Origin: Desulforhabdus amnigena
GTDB taxonomy: Bacteria; Desulfobacterota; Syntrophobacteria; Syntrophobacterales; Syntrophobacteraceae
Assembly: GCF_027925305.1 (NCBI RefSeq)
Contig: NZ_BSDR01000001.1
Coordinates: forward strand, 771,001-835,000
Length of the DNA: 64,000 nt
Reading direction: 5' to 3'
Below are positions 21,488-45,408 of this stretch, piece by piece (positions within the stretch are counted from its first letter, which is position 1; the number at the start of each line of letters is the position of its first letter). A program made the position numbers and the translations under genes. The notes under the pieces were generated by a model that was not told the origin of the DNA, ran no database searches, and worked only from the letters and a program-made list of their open reading frames with translations.

Positions 21488-22972
21488 ATGTTCAGACAGA
21501 TCGCTTTGCGAACCAAAATATTTCTCATCCTTGCGGCACTGGTGTTGATCACCGTGACGGGCAGTGGCCTGACCATGTCCATGATCTATCGTATCGGTTC
21601 GACGCTCACCTCTGTCCTCGATACCAATGTTGTCGCGCTCAATGTGGCGCAGGGATTGGAAACTTCTCTCGTTATGCAAAAGGGCTTTCTGACTTACTTC
21701 TTTCTGGATGGCGATGCGGCGTGGCTCAAACAGCTCGATCAGTACCAGGAAGCCTTTGAGGATTGGCTCCGAAAAGCCAGAACTACGGCCTACACACTCG
21801 AACAGCGTCAGATCCTCAATGAGATTGAATCCAAATATATCCGTTATAGTTACGGCCGTGACCAGGTGCTGACACTGTATAAGAGCGGAGATAGAGAAGA
21901 GGGATTCAAACAGCACAGGCAGATACGAAACGAGTTTTTCGCCATACGTGATTTGTGCGAAAAGTACAAGTCGGAGCATGAAAAGAGTATCCGTGCGGCT
22001 CGCAAGGAAATTCGCTCCGAGTTCCGCTTCGTCAACATCATGGCCATAACGGCCATGCCCGGCGCAATTCTATTGGGTGCGCTCCTGCTCTATATCCTTT
22101 TCAATCAGGTACTGGAACCCATACGGCAACTGGCATATGCCGGGGAAAAGGACGGCAAGAGCGGGCGGATTGTCGACGAAGTCAAGGCCTTGAGCCGCCG
22201 GGTCACCAGTCTCATGGAGGATGTCGATCAGACTCAATCAGAATTACAGCAAAGCCGGGAGCACCTTCTACAAACGGAAAAGCTGGCCATGGTGGGAAAG
22301 CTTGCTGCCGGTGTAGCGCATACCATCCGCAATCCACTCACTTCCGTCAAGATGCGTCTCTTCTCCATGGAAAGATCGTTGGAACTTTCTCCCACTCAAA
22401 AAGAAGATTTTGAAGTCATTTCTGATGAAATCCGCCATATAGATACCATTGTAAGAAATTTTCTGGAATTCTCCCGGCCTCCCAAACTGAAGATTCAGAG
22501 CGTAAGCCCTTCCGATGTGGTGGATATGGCCATTCAACTCTTGCGCCACCGCCTGGAATCGTACGGCGTAGAAGTGGAACTCTACCGTCAGCGGAGGCTG
22601 CCCGAAATCGAAGGCGATGCCGAACAATTGAAGGAAGTTTTGGTCAACCTTATCGTCAATGCCTGTGAAGCCATGACGGATGGGGGCAAGATAATGATCC
22701 GGGAAGAGGAAGGGGTAGCGGACCCTCTGGGGCGTGTAGCCGTAATCCGTTTGAGCGACAATGGGCCGGGAATTCCTGTATCTCTCCAGGACAAAGTTTT
22801 TCAGCCTTTTTTCAGCACTAAGGAAGAAGGCACGGGACTGGGCTTGAGCATCGCCGCACGGATCATAGAAGATCACAAGGGGTGGTTGAATGTTCGCTCA
22901 AAGGAAGGGAAGGGCACGACTTTTACCATCACCCTTCCCTGTAAGGAGGATGGCATTTGGCTTCGATCCTGA
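21488..22972 (+). CDS. Membrane sensor histidine kinase
   Basis: The 494-residue kinase has a membrane segment near residues 10-30, a helical sensor region, a second membrane segment near 180-205 (ITAMPGAILLGALLLYILF) and a HAMP-like linker. The phosphoacceptor His is at about 278 in AGVAHTIRNPL. The ATPase domain shows NACEAM (N box), DNGPGIP (G1) and TGLGLSIAARII (G2). Its stop lies inside the start of the NtrC-type regulator, a classic kinase/regulator pair. The ligand is unknown. Confidence 0.88.
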   Translation: MFRQIALRTKIFLILAALVLITVTGSGLTMSMIYRIGSTLTSVLDTNVVALNVAQGLETSLVMQKGFLTYFFLDGDAAWLKQLDQYQEAFEDWLRKARTTAYTLEQRQILNEIESKYIRYSYGRDQVLTLYKSGDREEGFKQHRQIRNEFFAIRDLCEKYKSEHEKSIRAARKEIRSEFRFVNIMAITAMPGAILLGALLLYILFNQVLEPIRQLAYAGEKDGKSGRIVDEVKALSRRVTSLMEDVDQTQSELQQSREHLLQTEKLAMVGKLAAGVAHTIRNPLTSVKMRLFSMERSLELSPTQKEDFEVISDEIRHIDTIVRNFLEFSRPPKLKIQSVSPSDVVDMAIQLLRHRLESYGVEVELYRQRRLPEIEGDAEQLKEVLVNLIVNACEAMTDGGKIMIREEEGVADPLGRVAVIRLSDNGPGIPVSLQDKVFQPFFSTKEEGTGLGLSIAARIIEDHKGWLNVRSKEGKGTTFTITLPCKEDGIWLRS

Positions 22973-24396
22973 TTGTCGACGACGATGCGCATCTGCGGCA
23001 GAGCTTTGAAAAGCTTTTGAGCCAGGAAGGACATACCGTAAGAACCGCAGCCAGTGGTGAGGCGGCCCTTGCCTTGGTGGGGTCGCAGCAGTTTGATCTT
23101 GTCATTATGGATGTACGCATGCCCGGGATGAATGGTCTGGATACTTTTCAGACCATGCGCAAGATCGAACCCAAGCTTCCGGTGATCATCATGACGGCGT
23201 TCGGCACAACGGAGACCGCCATCGAAGCCACCAAAATGGGTGCATTTGACTATGTTCTTAAACCCTTCGAAATTCCCGAAGTTCTGCTTGTGATCGAGCA
23301 AGCCCTGGAAGCGGGGCGTTTCATGCGCTCCAGAGTGGAACTGGATGTCGTTCCAGAATCGGCATCCCTTGAAGCCATTATCGGCCGAAGCAAGGCCATG
23401 CAGGAGGTCTACAAGGCAATCGGCCGGGTTGCTCCGACAGATGCTACCGTCCTCATCCGAGGGGAGTCGGGGACCGGCAAGGAATTGGTGGCCCGTGCCA
23501 TCTATCAGCACAGTCTTCGAGCGGATAAACCTTTTCTGGTGATCAACTGTGTGGCCATTCCTGAAACGCTCCTGGAAAGCGAACTCTTCGGATATGAAAA
23601 AGGCGCTTTCACGGGAGCGGTAAACCGCCGCGTGGGAAGAATCGAACAGGCCAACGGCGGCACTGTCTTTCTGGATGAAATTGGAGATATGCCTTTCGGC
23701 ATTCAGGCAAAGATCCTGCGCCTGCTGCAGGAAAAGAGCATCGAAAGGCTGGGAGGGCGGGAACCTATTCCCGTGGATGTGCGCATCATAGGGGCTACCA
23801 ACCGGGATCTTGAGGCCTCCCTTGCAGAGGGCCGTTTTCGTGAAGACCTCTATTATCGTCTCAAAGTGGTAACCCTCTGGCTTCCCCCCTTGCGCGAACG
23901 ATCGGGAGACATTTCCCTCCTTTCGGATTTCTTCCTGGCGCGTTTCGCTCAGGAAATGGGGATCAGCAATCCGGGAATAACGGAAAAGGCAAAGGCGCTG
24001 CTCGATGGACATACATGGCCTGGAAACGTCCGCGAACTGGCCAACACACTGCAAAAGGCCCTCATATTCAGCCGTGGCTGTCCCATTGGTCCCGAGGATG
24101 TCGTTCAGGCGATCGGTTCCGATTCACCGACGAAAAACGGCAGGGAAGATGTGACGGAAGAAACCATAAGACAATGGATCCGCAAATCGCTTGCTACGGC
24201 TGATGCGGAGAACATGTTTGAATATTTCATGGATACATTTGCCGGTCTGCTCATTTCTGAAGCCCTCAAGCTAGCAGGGGGCAACCGAAGCCGAACGGCC
24301 AAGATTCTGGGGCTTTCCCGCCCGACGCTTCTTTCGAAAATAGAAAAATACCGGCTGAAACTGGAAACGTCGGTTTTGAGCGATTCAACGGAGTGA
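22957..24396 (+). CDS. NtrC-family sigma-54 response regulator
   Basis: The 479-residue activator has a receiver ([13 protein letters not shown], phosphoacceptor in [14 protein letters not shown]), then the AAA+ domain with GESGTGKE (Walker A), GAFTGA (sigma-54 contact) and [12 protein letters not shown] (Walker B). It ends in a Fis-type helix-turn-helix ([19 protein letters not shown]). Between AAA+ and Fis is a longer than usual linker. The start is a TTG at 22957 with AAGGAGG ahead of it, overlapping the kinase by 16 bases. The sigma-54 promoter at 30242 is a candidate target, but that link is inference. Confidence 0.92.
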
Positions 24397-30241: not shown

Positions 30242-30259
30242 TTGGCACAACCGTTGCCT
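30242..30259 (+). promoter_or_regulatory. Sigma-54 promoter for the TauE operon
   Basis: The sequence ttggcacaaccgttgcct matches the -24/-12 consensus TGGCAC-N5-TTGC exactly, with GG and GC separated by ten bases. Transcription would start near 30270, leaving a 5' leader of about 155 bases before the tauE ATG. Activation would need an NtrC-type protein, and one is encoded at 22957. Confidence 0.8.
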
Positions 30260-31684: not shown

Positions 31685-31686
31685 AC

Positions 31687-32400
31687 ATGCTGGTAAGGCA
31701 CCAGAAAACCTTCAATATGGGTATAGTGCTCGCCATTTCTTTTGCGGGAATCTTATTGATCATTTTTGCGCCGTTTTTCGGGAATGGAAGAAACGGGCTG
31801 GAGTTTTCCGATGATCTCTTCAATAAGTTGTCCAAGGGTTCATCGTATTTTATTCCTAAGCTGTCGGCAAATGTGGCCAAATATGACGGCACTTCATTTA
31901 CTACGACGGTAAAACTCGACGATCCGAAAAATGTTGATAAAGTGTTGAAAATGTTCATCACGGCCGGGGCTCAGGTGGGCGCCGAAGGAACAATGCTGAC
32001 CATAAGCGGTGACTTTGGGAAACTTTTGAGCAAGGTCCTTGCGGATTGCGACGCCATGTACCACAACGATGGTCAGAAGGTTTCCAGTCTCTACGGGCAG
32101 GATGAAAAAGAGGTCATGGCCTTGTGGTGGAACGTTTTGAACAGAATGGACAAGGAATTCAAAAAACAGAAGAAAATCGACGAGTCCAACACCATTGGTG
32201 ATGTTCTGAGAAAGGGCATCGAACCGTCTTACAACTACTACGGCATTGAAGCTCAAAGTGTCGCCGATAAGGCTTTCACCATGGTTTTTCTGCTGATCTT
32301 TTACGTCGCATACACATTGTGGTGGGGATACGCCATCTTCTACATGTTTGACGGATTGGGACTCAGCATGAAGAAATCCAAGGTCAAAAAGGAAGTATAG
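31687..32400 (+). CDS. Unknown membrane protein, TauE operon partner
   Basis: I do not recognise a named family. The 237-residue protein has a membrane segment at each end (about 10-30 and 195-220) and a soluble middle of about 160 residues (SSYFIPKLSANVAKYDG, VDKVLKMFITAGAQV). The middle is therefore probably periplasmic, with both termini in the cytoplasm. It starts three bases after the tauE stop, so the two are surely co-translated and may form a complex. Confidence 0.75.
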   Translation: MLVRHQKTFNMGIVLAISFAGILLIIFAPFFGNGRNGLEFSDDLFNKLSKGSSYFIPKLSANVAKYDGTSFTTTVKLDDPKNVDKVLKMFITAGAQVGAEGTMLTISGDFGKLLSKVLADCDAMYHNDGQKVSSLYGQDEKEVMALWWNVLNRMDKEFKKQKKIDESNTIGDVLRKGIEPSYNYYGIEAQSVADKAFTMVFLLIFYVAYTLWWGYAIFYMFDGLGLSMKKSKVKKEV

Positions 32401-32409
32401 GAGGCGAGA

Positions 32410-32859
32410 ATGAAGGTTTTGGTACCTGTGGACGGCTCAGTCCATTCTCTGGAAGCTTTGAAGGTGGCATTAGATTTCGTGAAATTCAAAAACGCTGAAA
32501 TCTCGGTCATCAGTGTGGTGCCTTTCATCGGTGGTATGGAAGACCATGAAATCTCCCCGGCGCGCAGGGAGAGAGCCATGGAAAATATTGGAAAACTCGC
32601 AGATGATGCGGTGAAGAAGGCCTGTGACTTGCTCAGTGCAGAAAATGTCGTTTCGTCTTGTACCCGGACGGTTGTGACCTCGGTGTCGGTGCCCGATGCC
32701 ATTATCGAATTTGCGGAAACGGAGAAAATCGACCTTATCATCATGGGAAGCCGGGGACTCAGTTCTTCCACGCGATTCAAGATCGGCAGTGTGGCTTCCC
32801 AGGTGGTGAAATACTGTCCCTGTTCCATTTATCTGGTCAAGGGGCGGGTTGAAGGCTAG
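32410..32859 (+). CDS. Universal stress protein (UspA family)
   Basis: The 149-residue single-domain protein opens MKVLVPVDGSVHSLEAL and ends in the ATP-binding pattern IIMGSRGLSSSTRFKIGSVA (G-2x-G-9x-G-S). It is the third gene of the TauE unit, ten bases after the previous stop. UspA proteins respond to energy or redox stress, and this fits a stress-linked transport operon. Confidence 0.9.
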   Translation: MKVLVPVDGSVHSLEALKVALDFVKFKNAEISVISVVPFIGGMEDHEISPARRERAMENIGKLADDAVKKACDLLSAENVVSSCTRTVVTSVSVPDAIIEFAETEKIDLIIMGSRGLSSSTRFKIGSVASQVVKYCPCSIYLVKGRVEG

Positions 32860-33223: not shown

Positions 33224-33661
33224 ATGAAAAACGAATTTCTCATATTGATCGCTGACCGGAATAGGCATGTACGGGATTTTCTACGGCGGGAGCTTATGGA
33301 GGACGGGTATCGTGTTCAGGTGGCTAAAGACGGGCGGGAAGTGCAGACCATCATCGATGGAGAAAATCCCCCGGATCTTCTCATTTTGGACCTGGAAGTA
33401 CCCTATGTGAGTGGATATGCCTTACTGGAAAAGCTCCAGAATCGTACTCCCCCTCTGCCGGTTGTGATCCATACTTTTCTTACGGAATACAACAGTCAAT
33501 TGAATGGCCGGAAAATAGCCACCTTCGTTGAAAAAAGCGGTAAGACGGACTGCCTCAAAGCTGCTGTAATGGATATGCTGAAAGTATTCTATCCAAATCG
33601 TTTTGCTGGGGATTCATCTCAAAATCAGCGCTTCATGCATTGTAAAAAGGATGAAAAGTAA
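33224..33661 (+). CDS. Single-domain response regulator, divergent
   Basis: The 145-residue receiver opens LILIADRNRHVRDFL, and its phosphoacceptor is in DLLILDLEVPYVSGY. The usual PGMDG turn is replaced by PYVSG, and the conserved lysine region reads FVEKSGKTD. This makes it the most divergent of the receivers in the cluster. There is no output domain. It lies 108 bases ahead of the Cache histidine kinase on the same strand. I chose the ATG at 33224 over a TTG at 33197. Confidence 0.75.
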   Translation: MKNEFLILIADRNRHVRDFLRRELMEDGYRVQVAKDGREVQTIIDGENPPDLLILDLEVPYVSGYALLEKLQNRTPPLPVVIHTFLTEYNSQLNGRKIATFVEKSGKTDCLKAAVMDMLKVFYPNRFAGDSSQNQRFMHCKKDEK

Positions 33662-33769
33662 AGAATCATTGTACGGGAGAATGTTTTTTTAATATAAATA
33701 GCGCATATTCATATTCACAGGCATAGTTGCCTCTCCTGCTGCAACTTACCGCTGGAGAAAGACAGGATT

Positions 33770-35578
33770 ATGGAAAACAGGCATTACTATAGAGTTTTGA
33801 CCAGAAATATGGTCCTGATCCTGATTCTGATATCTTTTACCCCTCTTGTGCTCATAAGCGGGATTATCGGATATCAGTTCGAAACTTCCTATCGTCAGAA
33901 GGTCCTCGACCACCTCATCGAGCTTGTTCAGAAACACCAGCAGAACATCGACAGCTTTCTCAACGAAAAATTATCCTACATTCAAGTGCTCGTAAATTCC
34001 TATTCCCTCGAAGAGTTGAGCAACGAATCGTTTCTCAAACATAAGCTCTCCATCCTTCAACAAGGTTACGGTGGAGTATTCGTTGATCTGGGCCTGGTCA
34101 ACGCAGAGGGGGTTCAGGTGGCTTATGCGGGAACCTTCAAGCTGGAAAAGGCAAACTATTCTCAGGCGGAATGGTTCAAAAGGGCCATGAAGAGCCATTA
34201 TTTCATCAGTGACGTGTTTCTCGGTCTTCGGCGACAGCCTCACTTCATCGTTGCTGTCAAGCAGCAATGGGGAGGTAAAGACTGGATCGTACGGGCGACC
34301 ATCGATTTTGAGGCGTTCAATTCACTGGTGGAAAGCATCCATATCGGAGAGACGGGATCGGCTTTCATTCTAAACCGGGAGGGGGAATTCCAGACAAAAC
34401 CGCGTTTCGAACCTGCACCCAGCAAAGAGTATTTCTTGAAGGTTTTTGCAAGGGAGAGCAGCGCCGGTCTGGGTGCCCCACCTTTGGATATACAGACGGG
34501 TGCGGATGTGTTGCCCATGTTCGACAGGCATTCATCCTCTGAAAGTGGAAAAATGATGGAAAAGACTATTCTGGAAGGGGAAGTGAAATACCAGAATAAA
34601 AACTATATCTATATTATGACTTCCTTGAAGGGCGGGGAGTGGCTGCTGATCTATCAACAGAACGCTTCCGATGCTTTTTCCGAATTGTATGCAGCCAGAA
34701 AAATTTTCATTTTGATTTTCGTAGTGGGGGGGCTCGGTATTGTTTTCATGACCTTTATTCTGTCCCGAAAGATGGTGCGGTATATCGAGAGGGCGGACAA
34801 GGAAAAGGAGATGATGAACGAACAGGTGATCGAGGCGGGAAAGCTGGCTTCGGTGGGAGAGTTGGCTGCGGGTATCGCTCATGAGATCAATAATCCCGTA
34901 GCGGTGATGGTGGAAGAGGCCGGCTGGATGGAAGATTTACTGGAAGAGGAAGAGTTCAGGGGCAGTGAAAACCTTGATGAATTTCAGCGGGCTTTGAAGC
35001 AGATAAAGACTCAGGGGGCCCGGTGCAAGGAAATCACACACAAGCTTCTCAGCTTTGCCCGCAAGACCGATCCAAACATCAGGGAAGTGCAATTGAATGA
35101 TCTCATCGAAGACATCATCGGCATCTCCGAACAGAAGGCCCGTTACAGCAATGTCAAAATCGAAAAGCATCTGGAAAAAGATCTGCCGCCCGTTTTTGCG
35201 TCTCCTTCCGAAATGCAGCAGGTCTTTTTAAATTTGATCAATAATGCCATCGATGCTATCGGAACGGGTGGGGGGAATATTTCCGTCACGAGCAGGGTCG
35301 CCGGGGATTACGTGATTGTAGATGTTGCGGATACGGGCAGTGGGATTCCTAAGGCCATGCTTGCCAGAATTTTTGATCCTTTTTTCACGACCAAGCCTGT
35401 GGGTAAAGGAACGGGCTTGGGCTTATCCATTTGTTATGGCATTGTGAAAAAAATGGGCGGCGAAATCAGTGTGAACAGTGCGGTGGGTCTGGGAACGACG
35501 TTTCATGTCCATGTCCCTATCCCCAAAGAGGGTGAAAGTGAATCAAGGCACCAACCAGAGTCTAAAACGGCGCGATAG
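33770..35578 (+). CDS. Cache-domain histidine kinase
   Basis: The 602-residue kinase has a membrane segment near 15-35, an extracellular double-Cache-like sensor (about 40-300, with [19 protein letters not shown] and [15 protein letters not shown]) and a second membrane segment near 305-330. The phosphoacceptor His is at about 371 in [15 protein letters not shown]. The ATPase domain shows [15 protein letters not shown] and [12 protein letters not shown]. Cache domains usually bind small organic acids or amines. Three receiver-only regulators follow it directly. Confidence 0.9.
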
Positions 35579-35618
35579 AAATAGAAGGGGAACTCGATTA
35601 TAATTAGGAGGGTTTTGA

Positions 35619-36053
35619 ATGAATAATACGGTAGTGCTGCTGGTGGATGACGAAGTTCCTTTTGTGGAAACCATGACCAAACGTTTGAGCAAAAGAAACC
35701 TTACAGTGCTCAATGCTTTCAGTGGACCTGAAGGTCTGGATGTTCTGGAGAAGCATAGCAACGTGGATGTGGTGATTCTCGATGTCAAAATGCCCGGTAT
35801 GGACGGCATCGAGACTCTGCGCGAAATCAAGAAGACGAATCCCCTGGTTGAGGTGGTGATGCTCACGGGGCATGCCACAGTGGAAACCGCCATTGAAGGC
35901 ATGAAGCTCGGCGCTTTCGATTACCTCATGAAACCCTGTGACATTGAACAGCTTCTGTCCAAGGTTCAGGAAGCCAAGACCAAGAAGCGTAAACACGAGG
36001 AAAAGATCATTCAAGCACGTATCAAGGAAATCGCTTTGAGACGGGGCGATTAG
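35619..36053 (+). CDS. Receiver-only response regulator 1 of 3
   Basis: The 144-residue single receiver has LLVDDEVPFVETM, the phosphoacceptor in VVILDVKMPGMDGIETL and the lysine in FDYLMKPCDIEQ. The 25 or so residues after the receiver are a charged helix without an output fold. It starts 40 bases after the kinase stop with an AGGAGGG site, so it is likely co-transcribed and the nearest phosphate acceptor. Confidence 0.9.
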   Translation: MNNTVVLLVDDEVPFVETMTKRLSKRNLTVLNAFSGPEGLDVLEKHSNVDVVILDVKMPGMDGIETLREIKKTNPLVEVVMLTGHATVETAIEGMKLGAFDYLMKPCDIEQLLSKVQEAKTKKRKHEEKIIQARIKEIALRRGD

Positions 36054-36063
36054 GATTAGAGCG

Positions 36064-36471
36064 ATGCCCGAGAGTGGTAAAGGCGCAAAAAGCCCGATTC
36101 GACTTCTTCTCGTGGACGACGAGAAAAGTTATGTGGATGTGCTGACGAAAAGGATGTCCAAACGAAATATATTGGTCACGGCTGCCCTCAGTGGATCCGA
36201 GGCCATACAGATCATGCGTAAAATGAGTTTTGACGTTGTCGTATTGGATCTTAAGATGGAGGATATGGACGGCATTGAAGTCTTGAAGATCTTCAAGATC
36301 ATGGATCCGGAAATGCCTGTGATTATGCTGACCGGACACGGTTCAGAGACTGCAGCCCGAGAAGGGATACAGTTCGGCGCTTTCGATTATCTCACAAAGC
36401 CGTGTGATTTATCGGAGCTTATTGCGAAAATCAATGAAGCCTGCCACAGAGGAGAGGAAGTCGTTGACTGA
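36064..36471 (+). CDS. Receiver-only response regulator 2 of 3
   Basis: The 135-residue receiver has LLLVDDEKSYVDVL, the phosphoacceptor in VVVLDLKMEDMDGIEVL (the usual PGM turn is EDM) and the lysine in FDYLTKPCDLSE. It begins ten bases after regulator 1 and overlaps the start of regulator 3. No output domain is present. Confidence 0.9.
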   Translation: MPESGKGAKSPIRLLLVDDEKSYVDVLTKRMSKRNILVTAALSGSEAIQIMRKMSFDVVVLDLKMEDMDGIEVLKIFKIMDPEMPVIMLTGHGSETAAREGIQFGAFDYLTKPCDLSELIAKINEACHRGEEVVD

Positions 36472-36886
36472 TTTTAATGTATTGCTCGTAGACGACGAGG
36501 CGGAATTTCTGGATACCCTTGTGAAGAGGCTGAAAAAACGGAATTTGAATGCCGTTGGGGTCCGGAGCGGTGAGGCTGCCCTTGAGATGCTGAAAGATTC
36601 GCCCATGGATGTGGTTGTGTTGGACGTCAAGATGCCCGGTATGGACGGCATTGAAACCTTAAGGCAGATAAAAAAAATCTGCCCTCTGGTGGAAGTGATC
36701 ATGCTCACGGGGCATGCCAACATGGAAGTGGCGATTCAGGGAATGGAATTAGGGGCTTTCGATTATTTGATGAAACCAATGGAAATAGATGAACTCTTAT
36801 ACAAACTCCAGGATGCTTATAAAAAGAAATTGATCCACGAAAAAAAGATCAACAACATGAAGGAAGGATTGGGCTCAAGACGTTAA
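36464..36886 (+). CDS. Receiver-only response regulator 3 of 3
   Basis: The receiver of about 140 residues has VLLVDDEAEFLDTL, VVVLDVKMPGMDGIETL and FDYLMKPMEIDE. I place the start at the TTG at 36464, preceded by GGAGAGGAAG and overlapping the regulator 2 stop by eight bases. Frames opening earlier at 36404 or 36434 overlap regulator 2 more and lack such a site. Regulators 1 and 3 are closest in sequence, suggesting tandem duplication. Confidence 0.85.
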   Translation: MTDFNVLLVDDEAEFLDTLVKRLKKRNLNAVGVRSGEAALEMLKDSPMDVVVLDVKMPGMDGIETLRQIKKICPLVEVIMLTGHANMEVAIQGMELGAFDYLMKPMEIDELLYKLQDAYKKKLIHEKKINNMKEGLGSRR

Positions 36887-37316
36887 ATGCACGCAGTCCT
36901 GCGGATAGGTGTGGGGTCTCCCACGTGAGGTGCTCCGTATGCTTTCCGATATCAACGCATGGTATTTCTTGGCAGAAGTAATCATCCCGCCCGTCGTGTT
37001 TTGAATTCCCCTTTTTGATGGGGGATTCAGAGGATGTGCTCCTGGCTTCACTTCTCCCTGTCCTCATCGAGGGGGGAATGAAATCTTTTGATAGGGTGAG
37101 AACTTTTGTCGTGCTGAACCAGATAGATACTTACCAAGATTTGTCTCCGTTACTTTTACTTTCTTAAAGGTTTCAGGTGCCGTCAACCGTCCAGGCTAAG
37201 GCAGAAGATTGTGCTGTTCTCCCCCTATGGCATAATGTATTCGATCCACGGGGGAGAAGTTTCTTTGCTCACCAGGTTTCCAGTCTTTACCCTTCGTCCG
37301 ATCCCGAGGGAAGAAC
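36887..37316. other. Intergenic region before PEP-synthase-like copy 2
   Basis: This region of 430 bases has no gene that I can support. It contains a REP-like inverted element, aattccccttttt...ggggatt (about 37004-37027), and a small hairpin gtggggtctcccac near 36910-36925 just after the last regulator, which may end that operon. No sigma-54 promoter was found. The promoter of copy 2 should lie within the last 150 bases. Confidence 0.45.
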
Positions 37317-39962
37317 ATGGCTAAGTTTATTGATTTCCTAAAAAAAATTTCAAAAGTTGGGCGTAAGGGAAAGATGTCGAGCGCGGAGGTCGAAGAACTT
37401 CGAGCTGCGTTCAAAGCCCGTTATCACAACTTCCAATTGCTCTTGAGCGCCAATAACAAGACGCTGGAGCTCATGTCCGAAATGGAGCAGGCCCTGAGGG
37501 GAAACCAGCCCTTCGGTATGTCTTTCATCAGGGCCAACTGTACGGCGATCTCCGTCAATGTTTTCCGCATCATTCAAAACCTGGATCAACTTGCACCGGG
37601 AAAATATCAAAATCTTTATGAACGGTTCAGAATCATTCAGGAGCAGATCAATAACGTTCTCTCTCAGAAAAGGGAAACCATAGGAGAAGACCTCGTACTG
37701 CCTTTTGCTTCGATCGACAAGCATATGGCGGATCAGGTGGGCAGGAAGATGGCCAATGTGGGGGAAGTGAAAAACCGGCTGCACCTGCGAGTTCCCAGCG
37801 GGTTTGTCATATCATCACTGGGATACAGGAAGTTTTACGAGCACAATGATCTGCAGGCAGAGATCGACCGCAGATTGCAGGCGTCCACAGTAGAACAACT
37901 GGATCAACTGTATGCGTTGAGTGCCGATATTCAGCAGCTCATCATTCGGTCCGAGGTCCCCGAAGAGCTTCAAACTGCTATCATGGATGCGTACAGGGAC
38001 TTGGAAAACGAGGCCGGTCCCGGATGCAAAGTTTCCATGAGGAGTAGTGCTTTGGGGGAGGATGCCGCTGGAACTTCTTTTGCCGGTCAATACCGGTCCC
38101 AATTGAATGTGAGTGCGGACAATCTCATTCAGGCCTATAAGGAAATCGTCGCCAGCAAATACAGCCTTCAGGCCATCAGCTATCGCCTGAACCGGGGGAT
38201 TCTGGACGAAGACATCGCCATGTGTGTGGGGTGTATGGTGATGATCAATGCTGTGGCCGGCGGAGTGATCTACTCGCGCAATCCATTGAATATACGGGAT
38301 GATTCTATTTTTATAAACTCAGTTTGGGGATTGCCCAAATCCGTGGTGGACGGCAGTGTCGCTTCGGATCTTTTCGTGGTATCAAGAGAGGAGCCGCTCA
38401 AAATTATCAGGCGCGACATCAAGGAAAAAGAATACAAGTTTGTCTGCTACCCGGAAGAGGGCGTCTGCCGTATGGATGTGACGGGGGAAAAACATACACT
38501 TCCGTCCCTCGATGATGATCAGGTAATGCAGCTTGCGGATATGGCTTTGAAACTGGAGGACTATTATGGTTCTCCCCAGGATATTGAATGGGCTATCGAT
38601 CAGAATGGTTCCATTTTTGTGCTGCAGTGCCGCCCATTGGTACAGTCGGGAGGCGAAGAGGAACGCTTTCAGAAAGCAGGAGAATCGGCGGCGGCAGAAG
38701 GAGAGGTGCTTTTGGAGGGTGGCGCAACGGCAAGCCCTGGTGTGGCATATGGGCCGGTCTTTGTGGTCAAGAAAAACAGCGATACGCTGCAATTTCCGAT
38801 GGGTGCGGTTTTGGTGACTCCGCAGGCATTGCCCAGGGTGGCGGCGCTTCTCAATCGGGCCGTGGCGGTTGTCACGGAACAGGGGAGTGTGGCCGGCCAT
38901 TTGGCGAATGTGGCCAGGGAGTTCGGTGTTCCGGCTCTTTTCGGGATGAAGGACGCGACGGAAGTACTCAAAAATGATGAATATGTAACGGTGGATGCGG
39001 ACGGGTTGAGAGTCTACAAAGGCCGGATCGAACCCCTTCTGGAAAAGGCCCCCCCGAAAAAGAATCTCATGGAAGGAAGTCAGGTCTACGATATTCTGAA
39101 AGATGTCATGCAATACATTACACCTCTGAACCTCCTCGACCCGGATTCGTTGGATTTCAGACCGAGAAATTGCCTGACCTTTCATGATATTACCCGTTTT
39201 TCTCACGAAAAATCCGTAAAGGAGATGTTCAACTTCGGCAGTGAACATCATTTTTCTGAACGGGCCAGCAAACAATTGTTTGTGGATGTGCCCATGCAAT
39301 GGTGGGTGATCAATTTGGACGACGGATTCAAAGAGGACATCGAGGGAAAGTTCGTCATGTTGGACAACATCGTGAGCATCCCCATGCTGGCCCTTTGGGA
39401 AGGGATCAACGCTGTTCCCTGGGCGGGGCCCCCGCCGGTGGATACCAAGGGATTCATGTCCGTGTTGTGGGAGGCTACGACCAATCCGGCCCTGGATCCT
39501 TCCATGGATTCGCCTTATATCAACCGGAACTATTTTATGATTTCCAGGAATTTCCTCAGCCTCAATTCCAGGTTCGGCTTTCATTTTTCTACTATAGAAG
39601 CATTGGTGGGAGAGCGGCCTCACGAAAATTACATCAGTTTTCAACTCAAAGGTGGAGCGGCAGACTTTCAGAGACGGTTGCGGCGCGCTCTCTTTGTGGG
39701 AAGCATTCTCGAGGAGTTCGGCTTCCGCGCCGAAGTGAAAGAAGACGGGGTGTTTGCGCGGCTCGAAGGATATGATGAAGAATATATGAAGGAAAAGTTG
39801 AAAATTCTTGGGTATATGATCATGCATACACGGCAGTTGGATATGGTTATGTCCAATGACGCCTCCTACTATCATCACAGGACGAAAATAATGAACGATC
39901 TCCACAATGTGGTCATCCCCGGTCCCTCGCAAAAGCGGGACGGTAGCGCAAACGCCCGTTAA
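37317..39962 (+). CDS. PEP-synthase-like phosphotransferase with unusual ends (copy 2)
   Basis: The 881-residue protein is a clear paralogue of the one at 18489: same length, same order of parts. The N-terminal helical domain (1-120) includes NQPFGMSFIRANC, where copy 1 has QQLFGMSYLRSQS. The ATP-grasp domain has QVGRKMANVGEV and KVSMRSSALGEDAAGTSFAGQ. The phosphohistidine domain has its likely catalytic His at 528 in VAGHLANVAREFGVP. The C-terminal 300 residues have CLTFHDITRFSHEKSVKEMF and FGFHFSTIEAL but no PEP synthase barrel. It precedes the acyl-CoA synthetase/GNAT and Usp genes, which suggests a role in energy or carbon stress. The acceptor is unknown. Confidence 0.78.
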   Translation: MAKFIDFLKKISKVGRKGKMSSAEVEELRAAFKARYHNFQLLLSANNKTLELMSEMEQALRGNQPFGMSFIRANCTAISVNVFRIIQNLDQLAPGKYQNLYERFRIIQEQINNVLSQKRETIGEDLVLPFASIDKHMADQVGRKMANVGEVKNRLHLRVPSGFVISSLGYRKFYEHNDLQAEIDRRLQASTVEQLDQLYALSADIQQLIIRSEVPEELQTAIMDAYRDLENEAGPGCKVSMRSSALGEDAAGTSFAGQYRSQLNVSADNLIQAYKEIVASKYSLQAISYRLNRGILDEDIAMCVGCMVMINAVAGGVIYSRNPLNIRDDSIFINSVWGLPKSVVDGSVASDLFVVSREEPLKIIRRDIKEKEYKFVCYPEEGVCRMDVTGEKHTLPSLDDDQVMQLADMALKLEDYYGSPQDIEWAIDQNGSIFVLQCRPLVQSGGEEERFQKAGESAAAEGEVLLEGGATASPGVAYGPVFVVKKNSDTLQFPMGAVLVTPQALPRVAALLNRAVAVVTEQGSVAGHLANVAREFGVPALFGMKDATEVLKNDEYVTVDADGLRVYKGRIEPLLEKAPPKKNLMEGSQVYDILKDVMQYITPLNLLDPDSLDFRPRNCLTFHDITRFSHEKSVKEMFNFGSEHHFSERASKQLFVDVPMQWWVINLDDGFKEDIEGKFVMLDNIVSIPMLALWEGINAVPWAGPPPVDTKGFMSVLWEATTNPALDPSMDSPYINRNYFMISRNFLSLNSRFGFHFSTIEALVGERPHENYISFQLKGGAADFQRRLRRALFVGSILEEFGFRAEVKEDGVFARLEGYDEEYMKEKLKILGYMIMHTRQLDMVMSNDASYYHHRTKIMNDLHNVVIPGPSQKRDGSANAR

Positions 39963-40077
39963 GCCGAAGCATACAGATCTTCAAATTTTTCCTCCTGTAC
40001 CCTTTCCCTTGTTTAGCAATCCTGTACTCACTTCGAATCAATTCCTGAACCCTTGGATGGACGGAAGGGAGACGACC

Positions 40078-42753
40078 ATGGGCATTCATAATCTCGACAA
40101 GATCTTTCATCCCGAGGCAGTTGCCGTTGTTGGAGCCAGCCCCAGAATCGGAACAGTTGGTTATGCCTTCGTGGACAATCTGCTGAAAGGAGGTTTCAAG
40201 GGGAAGATTTTTCCGGTCAATCCTCATCACGTGGAAATATTGGGACTGAAAGCGTATCCCTCCCTCGCGGACATTCATCAACCGGTGGATCTTGCCATCG
40301 TTAGCACTCCCATCCATACAGCTCCGGCCATTATTCAGGAGTGCGCCGACGTGAACATCATGGGGGCCATAATTGTCTCCGCGGGCGGCAAAGAAGCGGG
40401 GGCGGAGGGGCGGGAAATTGAATCCAGGATCAAGACCGTGGCCGACAAGGCAGGGATCCGCATTGTGGGACCCAATTGTCTGGGAGTGGTGAGCGCCGAA
40501 AGCAAACTCAATGCCACTTTCGCCAGCCATATGCCTCTGCCCGGCAAGCTCGCTTTCATTTCTCAAAGCGGGGCCATCTGCACCGCCATTCTGGATCTTT
40601 CCCTGAAAGAGAAGAACGGCTTCAGCTATTTCGTGAGCATCGGAAGCATGCTGGACGTGGATTTTGGGGACTTGGTCAATTACCTGGGCAATGACAACAA
40701 CGTGAGCAGTATCGTTTTGTATATAGAAAGCCTGACCCATTTTCGAAAATTCATGAGTGCGGCTCGAGCGGTTTCCAGGATCAAACCCATTGTGGTGCTC
40801 AAAGCGGGGAGATCTGCCGCCGGGGCACGTGCCGCCGCCTCTCACACGGGAGCGCTGGCCGGATCGGACGCCGTCTATGACGCTGCCTTTGTTCGTGCGG
40901 GGATCGTTCGCGTGAACAACATCGAGGAACTGTTCGACTGTGCCGAACTGATGGCCAAACAACCTCGCCCCCAAGGTTCCGGCATGGCCATCATCACCAA
41001 TGCCGGCGGGCCGGGAGTGATGGCTGCCGACGCTCTTGCCTCGTACGGCATGGAACCAGTGACCTTGTCGTCCGATACCATGCAAAAATTGAACAGCATC
41101 CTTCCTCCATATTGGAGCCGGGGAAATCCCATTGATATTCTTGGAGATGCTTCTCCCGACAGGTATCGTAAAGTGCTGGAAGTCTGTATTGCTTCTCCTG
41201 AAATTCGGACCCTCCTGATCATCATGACTCCACAGTCCATGAGTGACCCGACAGGAGTTGCGGAATCCCTGAGTGAACTTTTAAGAGGAAAAGGGCTTTC
41301 CGTCTTCACGGTATGGATGGGGGGACTGGATATGGAAAAAGGACGGAGCATCTTCAATGCAGCGGGTATCCCCACCTATGATACGCCGGAGCGGGCCATA
41401 AGAGCCTTTCAATACATGTGTGCCTACGCGCGGAATATGGAAATGCTGCAACAGATTCCCCAAAAACTTCCTGAAGAACCCGAGTTCGATCAGACATCAG
41501 CGCGGACCATCATTACTGAAGCTCTCGAGCAAGATCACCATCTCCTTACGGAGGTGGAATCCAAGGCGCTTCTGTCGGCTTACGGCATCCCGGTGAATCC
41601 GACGAAAGTTGCGATATCGGCTGAAGAAGCCGTGAGGATTGCGCGTGAAATGGGGTATCCTGTCGTGATGAAGATCCATTCCCGTGATATTACCCACAAG
41701 TCGGATGCCAAGGGAGTCCAGCTCAATCTCAAATACGATGAGGATATACGGGAGGCATATGCCGCCATCATGACCCATGCGGCGGAATATAACCCGCAGG
41801 CCGAGCTCCTCGGAGTGACTGTGCAAACCATGCTTCAGCGGCAGGACTATGAGTTGATCCTGGGGAGTAAGAAAGATGCGGATTTCGGGCCCGTCATTCT
41901 CTTTGGAATGGGCGGAATCATGACGGAAGTCCTCAAGGACCAGGCAATCGCCCTCCCTCCCTTGAATCGACTGCTGGCCCGAAGGCTCATGGAAAGCACA
42001 CGAGTCTACAACCTGCTCAAGGGATACAGAAATCGACCGCCTGCCAATCTGGATCTGCTCGATGAAATCCTTGTGCGGCTCTCTCAACTCGTGATCGATT
42101 TTCCGGAAATCACCGAACTCGATATCAATCCTCTCCTTATCACGGAAAACGGCGCCTGTGCGGTAGATGCCCGGGTTTGCGTGGAGCCCTCTTCGGTGCC
42201 GTCTCCCATGCATCTCGTTATCAGTCCCTATCCCAGTCAATATGAGACAAGTACTGTACTGAAAAATGGAGAAACCATCCTGATCCGTCCCATCAAGCCG
42301 GAAGATGCTCCACTGCTTATGGATCTTTTCAATAGTCTCTCTTCGAAAACCATCTATTTTCGGTTTTTCAGGCCCCTTAAATCCCTCGCCAGGGAAATGC
42401 TGGTCAGGTTCACTCAAATCGACTATGACCGGGACATCGTTTTTGTGGCCTTGCATCGCAGGGACGGTGATGAACGGATTCTCGGGGTAGTCCGTCTCAT
42501 GGGTGACCCGGATGTCACCAAAGCTGAATTTGCTGTTGTGGTGAGCGATTCCTGGCAGGGGAAGGGGGTAGGAGCTGCACTGCTCCAGCAAAGCATATCC
42601 GTGGCCAAGGAACATGGTCTGAAGTTTATCTGGGGTCACGTTCTGCCTGAAAACACAAACATGCTTGCACTCGGTCGTAAACTGGGCTTTATTGTGAAAA
42701 GAATTCCCGGAAGTTCCAACTATGAGCTCAGAATAGACCTATCTAAAACGTGA
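40078..42753 (+). CDS. NDP-forming acyl-CoA synthetase fused to GNAT acetyltransferase (Pat-like)
   Basis: The 891-residue protein has a CoA-binding domain (FHPEAVAVVGASPRIGTVGY), succinyl-CoA-synthetase-like domains, an ATP-grasp domain (about 490-700, YPVVMKIHSRDITHKSDAKGV) and a C-terminal GNAT (about 735-890, ADSWQGKGVGAALL-type acetyl-CoA loop, here VSDSWQGKGVGAALL). The layout is that of protein lysine acetyltransferase Pat. Unlike my recollection of Pat, the phosphohistidine residue of ADP-forming acetyl-CoA synthetases is kept (His256 in AASHTGALAG). It could therefore be both an ATP-making enzyme and an acetyltransferase. The ATG at 40078 has a GGAAGGGAG site. Confidence 0.88.
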   Translation: MGIHNLDKIFHPEAVAVVGASPRIGTVGYAFVDNLLKGGFKGKIFPVNPHHVEILGLKAYPSLADIHQPVDLAIVSTPIHTAPAIIQECADVNIMGAIIVSAGGKEAGAEGREIESRIKTVADKAGIRIVGPNCLGVVSAESKLNATFASHMPLPGKLAFISQSGAICTAILDLSLKEKNGFSYFVSIGSMLDVDFGDLVNYLGNDNNVSSIVLYIESLTHFRKFMSAARAVSRIKPIVVLKAGRSAAGARAAASHTGALAGSDAVYDAAFVRAGIVRVNNIEELFDCAELMAKQPRPQGSGMAIITNAGGPGVMAADALASYGMEPVTLSSDTMQKLNSILPPYWSRGNPIDILGDASPDRYRKVLEVCIASPEIRTLLIIMTPQSMSDPTGVAESLSELLRGKGLSVFTVWMGGLDMEKGRSIFNAAGIPTYDTPERAIRAFQYMCAYARNMEMLQQIPQKLPEEPEFDQTSARTIITEALEQDHHLLTEVESKALLSAYGIPVNPTKVAISAEEAVRIAREMGYPVVMKIHSRDITHKSDAKGVQLNLKYDEDIREAYAAIMTHAAEYNPQAELLGVTVQTMLQRQDYELILGSKKDADFGPVILFGMGGIMTEVLKDQAIALPPLNRLLARRLMESTRVYNLLKGYRNRPPANLDLLDEILVRLSQLVIDFPEITELDINPLLITENGACAVDARVCVEPSSVPSPMHLVISPYPSQYETSTVLKNGETILIRPIKPEDAPLLMDLFNSLSSKTIYFRFFRPLKSLAREMLVRFTQIDYDRDIVFVALHRRDGDERILGVVRLMGDPDVTKAEFAVVVSDSWQGKGVGAALLQQSISVAKEHGLKFIWGHVLPENTNMLALGRKLGFIVKRIPGSSNYELRIDLSKT

Positions 42754-42897
42754 GCAATGGAAAGATATGAGATGGAAAGGGTTGCTTGGTGATATCGTTT
42801 TATAAAAAATCACATTCAACCCCAGGATGATGGATGGGAATTGTCGTTGCAAGAGAGGGAAGAAAGCCGGCAGTGAATATCCTTTGTGGAGGATGCT

Positions 42898-43866
42898 ATG
42901 GCGAACTCAAAGCGAAAAAGAATATTGGTGGCAGTGGATGAATCACAACAGGCGTTGGATGCGGTTCGTTATGTGAGTCGAACGGTGTCACCCGAAGAGA
43001 CCGAGGTGGTTTTATTTCATGTGGTAACCAGGGTTCCTGAATCTTTTTGGGATACGGAAAAAGAACCTGGCTATCAGTACCGCATTATCAGCATCACCGA
43101 GTGGGAAAAACAGCAGGAGCAGTTGATCAAAGAGTTTATGGAGAATGCAAACAACATCCTTCTGGATGCGGGTTTTCCGCAAGAAGCGGTGGTTGTGAAC
43201 ATTCACGACAGACAGGCTGGCATTGCAAGGGATATTCTCACAGAATCCCTCAACAATTATAACGCCGTCGTTGTAGGGCGCAGAGGGGTAAGTGAGCTGA
43301 AGGATTTGGTTTTGGGCAGTATCGCCACCAAGCTCGTGGAAAAAATCGCTCATGTTCCCCTATGGGTAGTGGGTGGAAGACCCGGGTGCGACAAAATCCT
43401 TCTATGTATGGATAACTCTGAGGGTGCCATGCGAGCTGTGGATTATGTGGCGGAAATCATGGATGGTCGTCCGAATCTGGAGGTGACCCTTTTCCATGCC
43501 ATGCGGGGCTTAAATGTTTTCCAGGAGGTTTTTGGAAAATCCTTTGGATCGGAAAAAGAGAAAGAGTGGCGTGCCGAGATGGAGAGGGAACTGGAAGAGG
43601 CGGAAAAAGCTCTGAAATCTGTTTTTGAAGAAGCCGGCAACCGGCTGCAGAAGGCAGGCCTGGATGCTTCCAGAATCCGTCAAATGATCGTGAAAGGGGT
43701 AACCAGCCGTGCCGGAGCCATTTTGGAGGAAGCGAAACGTGGAGAAATCGGCACAATAGTTATTGGCAGAAGAGGACTATCCAAGGTAAAAGAATTCTTC
43801 ATGGGGCGCGTGAGCAATAAGGTAATACAGATGGCGCGGGAAAAAACTGTTTGGATTGTCAGTTGA
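42898..43866 (+). CDS. Tandem universal stress protein
   Basis: The 322-residue protein has two UspA domains. The first is KRILVAVDESQQALDAV to VVGRRGVSELKDLVLGSIA. The second is KILLCMDNSEGAMRAV to IVIGRRGLSKVKEFFMGRVSNKV. Both keep the glycine-rich ATP-binding loop. GGAGG precedes the ATG at 42898. It lies between the acyl-CoA synthetase fusion and the beta-helix gene and is probably co-regulated with them. Confidence 0.92.
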   Translation: MANSKRKRILVAVDESQQALDAVRYVSRTVSPEETEVVLFHVVTRVPESFWDTEKEPGYQYRIISITEWEKQQEQLIKEFMENANNILLDAGFPQEAVVVNIHDRQAGIARDILTESLNNYNAVVVGRRGVSELKDLVLGSIATKLVEKIAHVPLWVVGGRPGCDKILLCMDNSEGAMRAVDYVAEIMDGRPNLEVTLFHAMRGLNVFQEVFGKSFGSEKEKEWRAEMERELEEAEKALKSVFEEAGNRLQKAGLDASRIRQMIVKGVTSRAGAILEEAKRGEIGTIVIGRRGLSKVKEFFMGRVSNKVIQMAREKTVWIVS

Positions 43867-43921
43867 CCAGCAAATGTTCCGGGTGGGGAGAGATCTACTG
43901 GATTTTGGGAGGGGACGGCAT

Positions 43922-45346
43922 ATGAAGAAACTGGAAAGGCTTTTGAATCGAATTATAGACCGCGTGAATGTAAATTTGCGAGAACCCGCTTTCGATGTAG
44001 GGCCTTACGTTCGCGGGTTGATACCCTGGGAGAAATTTGTCCGGTTTTACGCGTTTTACGGCCTAACCCTTGAGCATCCCCTCCATTTCCATTTTCATCA
44101 TTCCAGTCTGGCCGGCAGTTATTTTCTGGGAAAGTGCATTGTCGACAATGCAGTTCTTTATAAAAGCGATATCCGTGGAGACGAACTTAAAAGCCGTGGA
44201 GATGTGTTTCGTTACCGGGGACTTGATATTCCACTCCACGATGACGAAGTGATTCGGATCAAGGACAGTTTCCTGGTAAAAAACCTGGTTCATAACAACT
44301 CTCATGATCCGGAGAGTCCCGAGGAATTTCTAATCCAGAATACGGTGGCTTTGCAGTATGCCAATATTCATGGGTCCCCTGTTGAAGGAAGCTTTTTGGG
44401 TCCCTTCGCCACTGTGGATCTTACTACGGTACATGACTGTGTTATTGGAAAATATGCTTACGTCCAAACGGGTGAGGTGACTCACCGTTATGTGGAAGAC
44501 GGGCAGATCTGGATTCATGCGGATAATGCTTTCAATTTCAACTTTCATTTTCATCCCGACGACCTGAACCGTTACGTCCATCTGGTGCCTGGGGAAGTTC
44601 CCACGGGCATATTCATGGATTTTCTGGAGGAACGTAAAAGGGATTTCATCAGTGCTTTTGAGTCGGTGGAGTTGAAACCCAACATTGTTGTACCCGAGGG
44701 AGCTTCGGTCAGCCGCTATGCCGTGATCAAGGGAAATACCTCCATCGGTGAAAATGTTCTGGTGGCTCAGAGGGCCTATCTGGAAAACGCCTGTTTAGGC
44801 AAGGGTTCGAATGCTCAGGAAAATTGCTACATCATCAATTCCCGCCTCGAAGGTTTCAATATCACGGCGCACGGAGGCAAGGTCATCCATGCCAGGTTGG
44901 GCAAAAAGGTGTTCGTGGGTTTCAATGCCTTTCTTCAGGGCAAACCCGATTGTTCCCTCTCCATAGGGGAAGGAAGCATCGTCATGCCCCACACCATCAT
45001 TGACCTGAAGGAGAGCCTGGATATTCCTCCAGGCCAACTCGTTTGGGGTTACATCACGAACAAGAAAGACTTGAGCCGTCACAGTATTTCCCTGGAAGAG
45101 TTGTCGCGTTCGGAAGGTGAGATAGTCATCGGAGCCATGATTTTTCAAGGAAACGGAGGTGATTTTGTGAACGCCTTCCAGAAGCGCATTGAACATATTC
45201 TTGAGGCAAACGGGGCCTACTATGCCAAGGCGACAGGTAACCGTGGGCATGCTCAGTATGTTCAAAGTATTTCTTTCAACATCATACAGCCTTATCTCGA
45301 GGGAGATCTGGGGGGGATGTACCCGACCATCGATATCTGTCCCTGA
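43922..45346 (+). CDS. Left-handed beta-helix protein of unknown function
   Basis: I do not recognise a characterised homologue. The 474-residue protein has two stretches of hexapeptide-like repeats. One is around residues 150-200 (NTVALQYANIHGSPVEGSFLGPFATV). The other is around 255-370 (IVVPEGASVSRYAVIKGNTSIGENVLV... GSIVMPHTIID), typical of acyltransferase or carbonic-anhydrase-like beta-helices. Histidine-rich segments (LHFHFHHSS, FNFNFHFHPDD) could bind metal. The ATG at 43922 has GGAGGGG upstream. A strong bidirectional terminator follows, so it ends the cluster. Confidence 0.7.
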   Translation: MKKLERLLNRIIDRVNVNLREPAFDVGPYVRGLIPWEKFVRFYAFYGLTLEHPLHFHFHHSSLAGSYFLGKCIVDNAVLYKSDIRGDELKSRGDVFRYRGLDIPLHDDEVIRIKDSFLVKNLVHNNSHDPESPEEFLIQNTVALQYANIHGSPVEGSFLGPFATVDLTTVHDCVIGKYAYVQTGEVTHRYVEDGQIWIHADNAFNFNFHFHPDDLNRYVHLVPGEVPTGIFMDFLEERKRDFISAFESVELKPNIVVPEGASVSRYAVIKGNTSIGENVLVAQRAYLENACLGKGSNAQENCYIINSRLEGFNITAHGGKVIHARLGKKVFVGFNAFLQGKPDCSLSIGEGSIVMPHTIIDLKESLDIPPGQLVWGYITNKKDLSRHSISLEELSRSEGEIVIGAMIFQGNGGDFVNAFQKRIEHILEANGAYYAKATGNRGHAQYVQSISFNIIQPYLEGDLGGMYPTIDICP

Positions 45347-45362
45347 TAGAACGAAAAAAAAT

Positions 45363-45398
45363 GGATAACCGTTCACCGCTGGGGGTGAACGGTTATCC
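45363..45398. terminator. Bidirectional terminator with a 15-bp perfect stem
   Basis: The arms ggataaccgttcacc and ggtgaacggttatcc enclose a six-base loop. An A-run lies to the left (T-run on the minus strand) and a loose T-rich stretch to the right. It sits exactly between the convergent beta-helix and endonuclease IV genes. Confidence 0.85.
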
Positions 45399-45408
45399 AA
45401 AATGCATT

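Follow-up and report, generated by a model that had tools for sequence, protein, structure and literature searches.

A conserved signalling module with a TauE-family permease, lone receivers and a PEP-synthase-like protein in Desulforhabdus amnigena

Described systems of similar plan

Sulfate respiration begins with the uptake of sulfate or thiosulfate, and to our knowledge the control of this uptake is poorly understood. We analysed a 64-kb stretch of the Desulforhabdus amnigena genome (the window; part of a single 4.54-Mb contig), in which a signalling module combines a TauE/SafE (TSUP) family permease, the protein encoded directly after it (hyp317), receivers (RR0-RR3), a dCache sensor histidine kinase and, as the most puzzling member of the cluster, a phosphate-transfer protein resembling phosphoenolpyruvate (PEP) synthase, hereafter called the PEPS-like protein. 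The conserved module is real and is bounded differently from the interval first drawn (33224-45346). The reading that we favour, tentatively and at a little less than an even chance, is that of a sigma54-controlled oxyanion-uptake module tied to sulfur respiration, in which the receivers and the PEPS-like phosphotransferase would set the activity of the permease.

The closest described system is the nitrate cluster of Desulfovibrio (DVU0251-DVU0245 and Dde_0597-Dde_0605), which likewise brings together TauE, a kinase, a lone receiver and a PPDK_N/PEP-utilizer gene. According to the accessible part of the article by Korte et al. 2014 (PMC4001038), insertions in D. vulgaris DVU0251 (TauE-like), DVU0250 (hypothetical), DVU0247 (receiver) and DVU0246 (resembling pyruvate phosphate dikinase, PPDK) left growth unaffected by 100 mM nitrate, whereas a mutant of the next gene, that of the phosphatase DVU0245, was still nitrate-sensitive, and the authors proposed a leaky thiosulfate transporter. 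Since DVU0246 lies after the permease gene and the DVU0245 mutant is sensitive, the effect of the PEPS-like gene is not simply polarity on DVU0245, and the PPDK-like protein itself seems to be needed for the permease-linked nitrate sensitivity of D. vulgaris. A locus in a D. vulgaris relative (L137) carries genes for DUF169, TauE, a hypothetical protein, a phosphonate-type binding protein, a kinase, a 119-residue receiver, a PEPS-like protein and a DSP phosphatase; here and below, D. vulgaris relatives are those of 288 family genomes with a cytochrome c3 of 85-89% identity, their kinship being deduced from this value. The published gene list of the nitrate cluster contains no GNAT and no universal stress protein (Usp). 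The cluster was rejected as an orthologue, with a PEPS protein of 29.5% identity, a short TauE alignment and no match to hyp317, and its mutant phenotype, being that of a paralogue, serves here as an analogy and is not transferred.

In the literature, of which subscription papers were mostly out of reach, a cluster of TauE, receiver and PPDK-like genes was found only in PMC4001038. The initial annotation had presented the locus as undescribed; this calls for caution, since a paralogous cluster of like plan has a published phenotype, through which the module is partly described. The suggestion in the same annotation that the receivers act through the PEPS-like protein, and not on DNA, fits by analogy the phenotype reported in the accessible text of PMC4001038.

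A further comparison concerns regulation. In the accessible text of Kazakov et al. 2015 (PMC4641369), nine sigma54 operons contain TSUP or PSE transporters with unknown substrates, and the two-gene TSUP operon DVU0132-0133 of D. vulgaris is sigma54-dependent and bound by two enhancer-binding proteins. This operon resembles TauE-hyp317 in being a TSUP permease operon with a sigma54 promoter and NtrC-type activators, and differs in that this text links it to no PEPS-like gene.

Conservation of the gene set in relatives

Neighbourhoods were fetched for 30 of the 32 orthologous PEPS-like genes in relatives, the other two lying on contigs shorter than 5 kb; the closest named relative of the protein belongs to Desulforhabdus sp. 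TSK (81% identity). On the same strand and within 10 kb of the PEPS-like gene, a receiver was present in all 30 loci, TauE and hyp317 in 24 each, Usp2 (a double Usp; at least 35% identity) in 22 and Usp1 (single-domain) in 10. Within the same distance were found a kinase with at least 40% identity to the dCache kinase (16 loci), a CoA-ligase/GNAT fusion (12) and a beta-helix protein (3, namely the sister species and two others). Only 17 of the 30 pieces reach at least 6.5 kb upstream and at least 5 kb downstream, so that absences are overstated in these counts, and genes were greedy open reading frame (ORF) calls with BLAST labels, among which spurious ORFs in GC-rich loci lower the adjacency counts.

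The comparison with control genes is restricted to pieces that extend far enough on the relevant side. TauE and hyp317 each occurred in 19 of the 21 upstream-complete pieces, the kinase in 12 and Usp1 in eight, against none for the cytochrome and fructose-bisphosphatase (FBPase) controls; in the 18 downstream-complete pieces, Usp2 was found 14 times and GNAT 10 times, against three for an AP-endonuclease-like control. The wider named set (loci with a PEPS of at least 45% identity) gave TauE and hyp317 in 11 and the kinase in four of 18 upstream sides, again with no cytochrome and no FBPase, and Usp2 in three, GNAT in one and the beta-helix protein in two of 15 downstream sides, next to controls of two (AP-endonuclease-like), one (TrkH), one (PurB) and zero (TrkA). 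Without this restriction the controls would be partly unfair: even in the window, over 10 kb separate the PEPS-like gene from FBPase, the cytochrome and PurB, and TrkH and TrkA are mostly beyond the ends of the fetched pieces. The counts in both sets indicate that TauE-hyp317-PEPS with receivers is the wide core, and that the GNAT-Usp2 pair belongs mainly to this lineage. A frequent order in relatives is RR0-kinase-RR1-RR2-RR3-TauE-hyp317-PEPS-kinase-ligase/GNAT-Usp2, which a Pseudodesulfovibrio locus (L032) keeps from RR0 as far as PEPS; the order in the window differs, TauE-hyp317-Usp1 preceding RR0.

The nine same-strand genes described for 33224-45346, with their domains, were borne out by a Pfam scan, in which all four receivers indeed have no output domain. 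Nor are the genes scattered in relatives, part of the set staying together to about 50% identity, but the proposed limits have to be redrawn. The TauE-hyp317 pair (30428-32400), which belongs to the core, lies with Usp1 directly upstream and had been left out, and the beta-helix gene, rejected as a core member by its three loci among 30, is peripheral. The strong terminator said to close the set was not confirmed either. On the plus strand the hairpin stem 45362-45399 is followed by AAAATGCATTC, and the T tail sits on the minus strand; the hairpin therefore suits the converging gene 45409-46326 and need not end a nine-gene operon, and a plus-strand terminator as the end of the module was ruled out. 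With gaps of 364 bp before RR0 and 430 bp before the PEPS-like gene, the nine genes may belong to more than one transcript.

It is conceivable that the genes are unrelated neighbours in a signalling-rich stretch that accumulates two-component genes, as the 35 kb before the window are likewise rich in receivers. We consider this very improbable, given that the co-occurrence across genomes goes beyond adjacency, that the upstream controls were never found and that a like composition recurs in paralogous clusters.

The lineage-specific pair bears on another explanation. The CoA-ligase/GNAT protein, a CoA-synthetase domain with a C-terminal GNAT, aligns over its full length with the solved 'Protein acetyltransferase' structures 9it0 and 9isq, which we take to be E. 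coli PatZ. It resembles the type I protein acetyltransferases (PatZ / SePat) in its NDP-forming CoA-synthetase followed by GNAT, and differs from those described in that the synthetase His motif SHTGALAGSD is kept, whereas the alignment shows 9it0 and 9isq without it. Of 15 other distinct homologues in the alignment, 14 keep the motif as well; a 732-residue protein of 35% identity with the ligase/GNAT label (L085) has neither this motif nor the other two. In the type I GNAT enzymes the synthetase is dead and its catalytic His lost, as stated in the accessible text of PMC8556138, and the kept motif suggests that the synthetase half of the window protein may, unlike theirs, be alive. The same text names a Usp as a substrate of mycobacterial Pat; as the GNAT here adjoins Usp2, Usp2 is by analogy a natural candidate client.

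An energy-stress module, in which phosphate transfer and acylation would be the pathway ends, the Usps the clients and the permease incidental, would agree with this precedent of a related GNAT followed by a double Usp, and with the frequency of Usp2 near PEPS (22/30 loci, and 14/18 downstream-complete pieces against 3/18 for the AP-endonuclease-like control). The explanation is nevertheless improbable. In the wider named set GNAT (1/15) and Usp2 (3/15) are about as frequent as the controls (0-2/15), with TauE and hyp317 at 11/18; GNAT occurs in one of 39 hyp317 loci; and the published gene list of the nitrate cluster includes the permease but neither GNAT nor Usp (PMC4001038).

The PEPS-like family and its permease

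The PEPS-like protein consists of N-terminal helices (about residues 1-120 in the model), an ATP-grasp domain (139-449), a swivel domain (494-562) in which the catalytic His aligns with His528 and is kept, and a C-terminal domain (C-domain; about 585-866). Its description as a barrel-less PEP-synthase-like protein proved accurate in the Pfam scan, which matched PPDK_N (E 2.4e-95) and the swivel phospho-His domain and left the PEP/pyruvate barrel unmatched; residues 583-881 gave no Pfam match at E up to 1. The likeness to PEP synthase, rifampin phosphotransferase and PPDK lies in the ATP-grasp and swivelling phospho-His domains with their key residues, and the difference in the helical N-terminal domain, the Pfam-unmatched C-domain and the lack of a barrel match. 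True PEP synthase was tried and rejected because the TIGR01418 score (347.6) is below the cut-off of 739.75 and no C-terminal PEP/pyruvate barrel was matched; for rifampin phosphotransferase, the NF041857 score of 201.2 is under the cut-off of 999.

The residues R242, E424, Q437 and R439, which correspond to the ATP-site residues of PPDK, and His528 are each present in at least 95% of 85 full-length homologues, a set of 120 ORFs minus near-duplicates, truncated and long fused forms in which degenerate variants are under-represented. Judging from these conserved residues, phosphate loading by the PEPS-like protein is very likely. The C-domain residues H623, D624, R627, H630, E631, H756, G779, G780 and R790 are conserved to the same degree. 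A fold search with the C-domain model (pLDDT 87) gave no confident solved-fold match (best Foldseek E 0.039; best VIA Z 5.9, rmsd 3.2 over 80 residues), and the weak Foldseek matches to DR_1245, SycN-YscB, ExsC and Arp2/3 subunits (probabilities 0.08-0.35) were not used; the modelled domain possibly has a new fold.

These features would also fit a role in metabolism, the protein being an ATP-dependent phosphotransferase for a small molecule imported by TauE, much as PEP synthase acts on pyruvate and rifampin phosphotransferase on rifampin, with the receivers only tuning it. The ATP-grasp and swivel domains match those of PEP synthase, rifampin phosphotransferase and PPDK in sequence and model, and the strongly conserved set H623, D624, R627, H630 and E631 looks catalytic. 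We regard this as unlikely, though worth serious consideration, for the following reasons. Five homologues of 366-408 residues (L185, L186, L187, L214 and L224) consist of the N-terminal helices and the C-domain only, and one (L193:10302-12707, immediately after TauE-hyp317) has a diverged ATP-grasp and no swivel His domain and is, by its sequence, likely a pseudo-enzyme. Such forms point to a binding or regulatory role, and a catalytic core that can be removed suits a regulator. A lone receiver was encoded within four called genes, on either strand, of 97 of 126 distinct PEPS-family genes (TauE 70, kinase 66), a non-random set from loci fetched for PEPS or hyp317. The genome itself carries six genes with the PEPS C-domain; all of them except PEPS2, the second PEPS-like paralogue of the window, lie within 5 kb of one of the 29 stand-alone receivers that the genome encodes (those over cut-off in an open frame of at most 215 residues). 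Finally, no recurrent catabolic enzyme was seen nearby among the labelled ORFs, the unlabelled ones being unidentified.

Other arrangements of the family were also observed. In L214 and L224, the homologue reduced to N-terminal helices and C-domain stands immediately after hyp317. In three loci (L113:7013-10792, L114 and L118) the PEPS-like protein continues into a DSP-type phosphatase domain with a cysteine-rich tail, these fusions being 1252-1259 residues long and encoded behind a kinase and a receiver; Desulfovibrio has the two as separate genes, DVU0246 and DVU0245. In four others (L116, L117, L119 and L120) it ends in some 200 additional residues that look, by eye, like a LamG-like lectin domain. 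Elsewhere in the D. amnigena genome (L111, G000:C1:2128500-2148400), three consecutive PEPS-like genes, accompanied by a lone receiver and a 310-residue TauE-like permease, form a further paralogous cluster, and in a D. vulgaris relative (L140, G147:C2) a TauE-like permease gene adjoins two more PEPS-like genes. A PEPS2-like gene adjoins a sigma54-type regulator in L136, L138 and L141, which may be compared with the number-neighbours Ddes_1643-1644 of D. desulfuricans 27774 (sigma54-interacting protein and 'pyruvate phosphate dikinase'), both down with nitric oxide in the accessible text of PMC5701242.

The permease partner of the module matches PF01925 over the cut-off and has several membrane spans; function prediction for TSUP proteins was called not feasible in the accessible text of PMC5840216. 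The hyp317 gene, whose product had no match in the Pfam scan, starts 2 nt past the TauE end, and 54 of 63 hyp317 homologues have two membrane stretches and nine have one. A search with hyp317 alone gave 75 matches, spread over 72 of the 297 genomes searched in the phylum. For these matches 40 regions were fetched, which were not chosen for PEPS, and one was dropped as it held no ORF labelled hyp317. TauE lies immediately 5' in 39 of the 39 remaining loci, and a PEPS-family gene, full or shortened, lies within 10 kb and on the same strand in 27; an RR0-RR3-type receiver was counted in 22, a kinase in 20 and GNAT in one. We consider hyp317 to be probably a subunit of the permease.

Among the same 297 genomes, 107 carry the PEPS C-domain (recognised by profile A1), 143 carry dsrA (over cut-off) and 72 carry hyp317. 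hyp317 occurs together with the PEPS C-domain in 69 of its 72 genomes (Fisher 1e-35), and the association persists within dsrA carriers alone (1.5e-10), both values being uncorrected for shared ancestry. dsrA is found in 102 of the 107 PEPS C-domain carriers and in 68 of the 72 hyp317 carriers. The dsrA-less carriers (four genomes for hyp317 and five for PEPS: G420, G436, G503, G454 and G385) were counted as misses despite a completeness of 62-80%. The PEPS-like family is near-restricted to dsrA carriers within the phylum, and this family with its distribution is to us the interesting part of the locus. Four PEPS carriers with labels of other phyla were tested for dsrA, which is present in the two Thermoleophilia drafts and in the Myxococcales one and absent from the Phycisphaerales draft; together with two drafts of sulfate-reducer groups, dsrA is present in five of the six drafts tested, for which mis-binning is possible.

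Promoter motif, proposed mechanism and neighbouring genes

The genome encodes sigma54, and the window an NtrC-type activator. The motif TGGCACaaccgTTGC before TauE (Table 1) is the sole perfect sigma54 motif in the 64 kb; once two mismatches are allowed, matches are about as frequent as expected by chance (54 found against 58 expected). Upstream stretches of 81 distinct TauE genes contain the perfect motif six times (randomised mean 0.05) and a motif with at most one mismatch 16 times (randomised mean 1.85, largest 7), where the null is first-order resampling in 20 rounds. Motifs were also found before RR0 (6/24; mean 0.55) and before the kinase (9/36; mean 0.65), two sets that may share sites. 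Of 80 distinct loci, 20 have a homologue of the NtrC-type regulator (at least 55% identity) no more than 12 kb from TauE, and in five it is among the two gene calls preceding TauE. The module thus looks to be switched transcriptionally too, from a putative sigma54 promoter. The initial annotation had concluded that the signalling does not end in transcription, which is correct for the nine genes that it listed and cannot be kept for the module, with its recurring motif before TauE, a genome-encoded sigma54 and an NtrC-type pair in the window.

Under the oxyanion-uptake reading, transport would fall to the TauE-family permease and hyp317, its partner with two membrane spans, and the NtrC-type pair would probably switch the permease operon at the level of transcription. 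Phosphorylation by the dCache kinase would reach the stand-alone receivers, which would act on the PEPS-like protein; the latter would transfer phosphate from ATP onto His528 and, through its C-domain, use that phosphate to adjust how active the permease complex or a protein coupled to it is. The CoA-ligase/GNAT and Usp2 would be an accessory pair of this lineage, probably acylating the Usp or reporting the acyl-CoA/adenylate state. We base this reading on the gene set, its conservation, the promoter motif, the kept catalytic residues and the co-occurrence with dsrA. The oxyanion substrate, the contact between receivers and the PEPS-like protein, the phosphate acceptor and the sign of control are inferred.

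In a broader form, which we advance with considerable doubt, the PEPS-like family would be a new two-component output occurring almost only with dissimilatory sulfite reductase. It would be a receiver-controlled ATP-grasp/swivel-His phosphotransferase whose loading (ATP to AMP and phosphate) would also read the adenylate state disturbed by sulfate activation; the C-domain, possibly of a new fold, would pass on phosphate or a conformational signal that gates oxyanion uptake by TauE-hyp317, and the variants with N-terminal helices and C-domain only would be constitutive or competing regulators. If the PEPS-like protein gates a TSUP permease for lone receivers, this would explain the nitrate resistance common to the permease, receiver and PEP-synthase-lookalike mutants of Desulfovibrio, and would give a function to the several 'PEP synthase'-like paralogues per sulfate reducer.

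Several observations weigh against the oxyanion-uptake reading. Regarding the nitrate cluster, the accessible text of PMC4001038 shows that for DVU0250 and DVU0248 the pooled results do not agree with those of single mutants, and that in D. alaskensis the homologues of DVU0245 and DVU0250 show the opposite behaviour in the pool, the DVU0245 homologue having positive fitness. The cluster is moreover paralogous, with the PEPS identity given above and a TauE alignable over 104 residues only; its hypothetical membrane protein has no match to hyp317, and DUF169, a PtxB-like (phosphonate-type) binding protein and a DSP phosphatase are all absent among the scanned window genes (18489-46326). In the distribution data, 75 of the 143 dsrA carriers have no hyp317 and 41 have no PEPS C-domain, so that neither is required for sulfur respiration, and in 12 of the 39 hyp317 loci the same strand carries no PEPS-family gene within 10 kb. 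As for transcription, the sigma54 motif was found before none of 81 PEPS genes (randomised mean 1.05), and the 430-bp gap before the PEPS-like gene may part transcripts.

The features of the locus are collected in Table 1. Likely gene starts, judged by upstream letters and match starts, differ from those of the ORF finder. The pockets of RR1, RR2 and RR3 show the usual DDE, and that of RR0 has ADRN instead, which makes its acidic pocket atypical.

Table 1. Features of the module and its surroundings, in window positions
Feature	Position	Strand	Basis
PEPS2, second PEPS-like paralogue, 879 aa, 38% identical to first	18489..21128	-	sequence comparison
histidine kinase (4HB_MCP, HisKA, HATPase), probable partner of sigma54 activator	21488..22972	+	domain scan
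NtrC-type response regulator (receiver, sigma54 AAA+, HTH_8)	22957..24396	+	domain scan
perfect sigma54 -24/-12 motif TGGCACaaccgTTGC, 170 bp before TauE start	30243..30257	+	motif scan
TauE/SafE (TSUP) family permease, 418 aa	30428..31684	+	Pfam PF01925
hyp317 (P0011), two membrane stretches flanking soluble domain	31687..32400	+	sequence analysis
Usp1, single-domain universal stress protein	32410..32859	+	domain scan
receiver RR0, atypical acidic pocket	33224..33661	+	Pfam, residues
dCache sensor histidine kinase (dCache-HisKA-HATPase)	33770..35578	+	Pfam
stand-alone receiver RR1	35619..36053	+	Pfam
stand-alone receiver RR2	36064..36471	+	Pfam
stand-alone receiver RR3, likely TTG start, overlaps RR2 by 8 nt	36464..36886	+	Pfam
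PEPS-like protein P0001, 881 aa	37317..39962	+	Pfam, model
ADP-forming acyl-CoA synthetase fused to GNAT, synthetase phospho-His motif kept, likely ATG start	40078..42753	+	Pfam, alignment
Usp2, double universal stress protein, likely ATG start	42898..43866	+	Pfam
left-handed beta-helix hexapeptide protein, kin of 3c8v, likely ATG start	43922..45346	+	match to solved structure

The last gene of the table had been described as an unknown beta-helix protein. The beta-helix is correct, and the protein is not unknown: it is a hexapeptide left-handed helix whose residues 23-496 match the solved 'Putative acetyltransferase' 3c8v nearly over the full length (E 2.2e-183), the difference being the peripheral place of the window gene relative to the module. 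Between the NtrC-type pair and TauE (27675-29111), a gene for a multihaem cytochrome with a weak MtrC/MtrF-like match adjoins that for fructose-bisphosphatase, a pair not seen at that place in 21 relatives. At 7-34 kb before the window (G000:C1:736832-764181), eight stand-alone receivers are encoded along with three or more larger response regulators, and this receiver cluster and the window possibly form one long signalling region.

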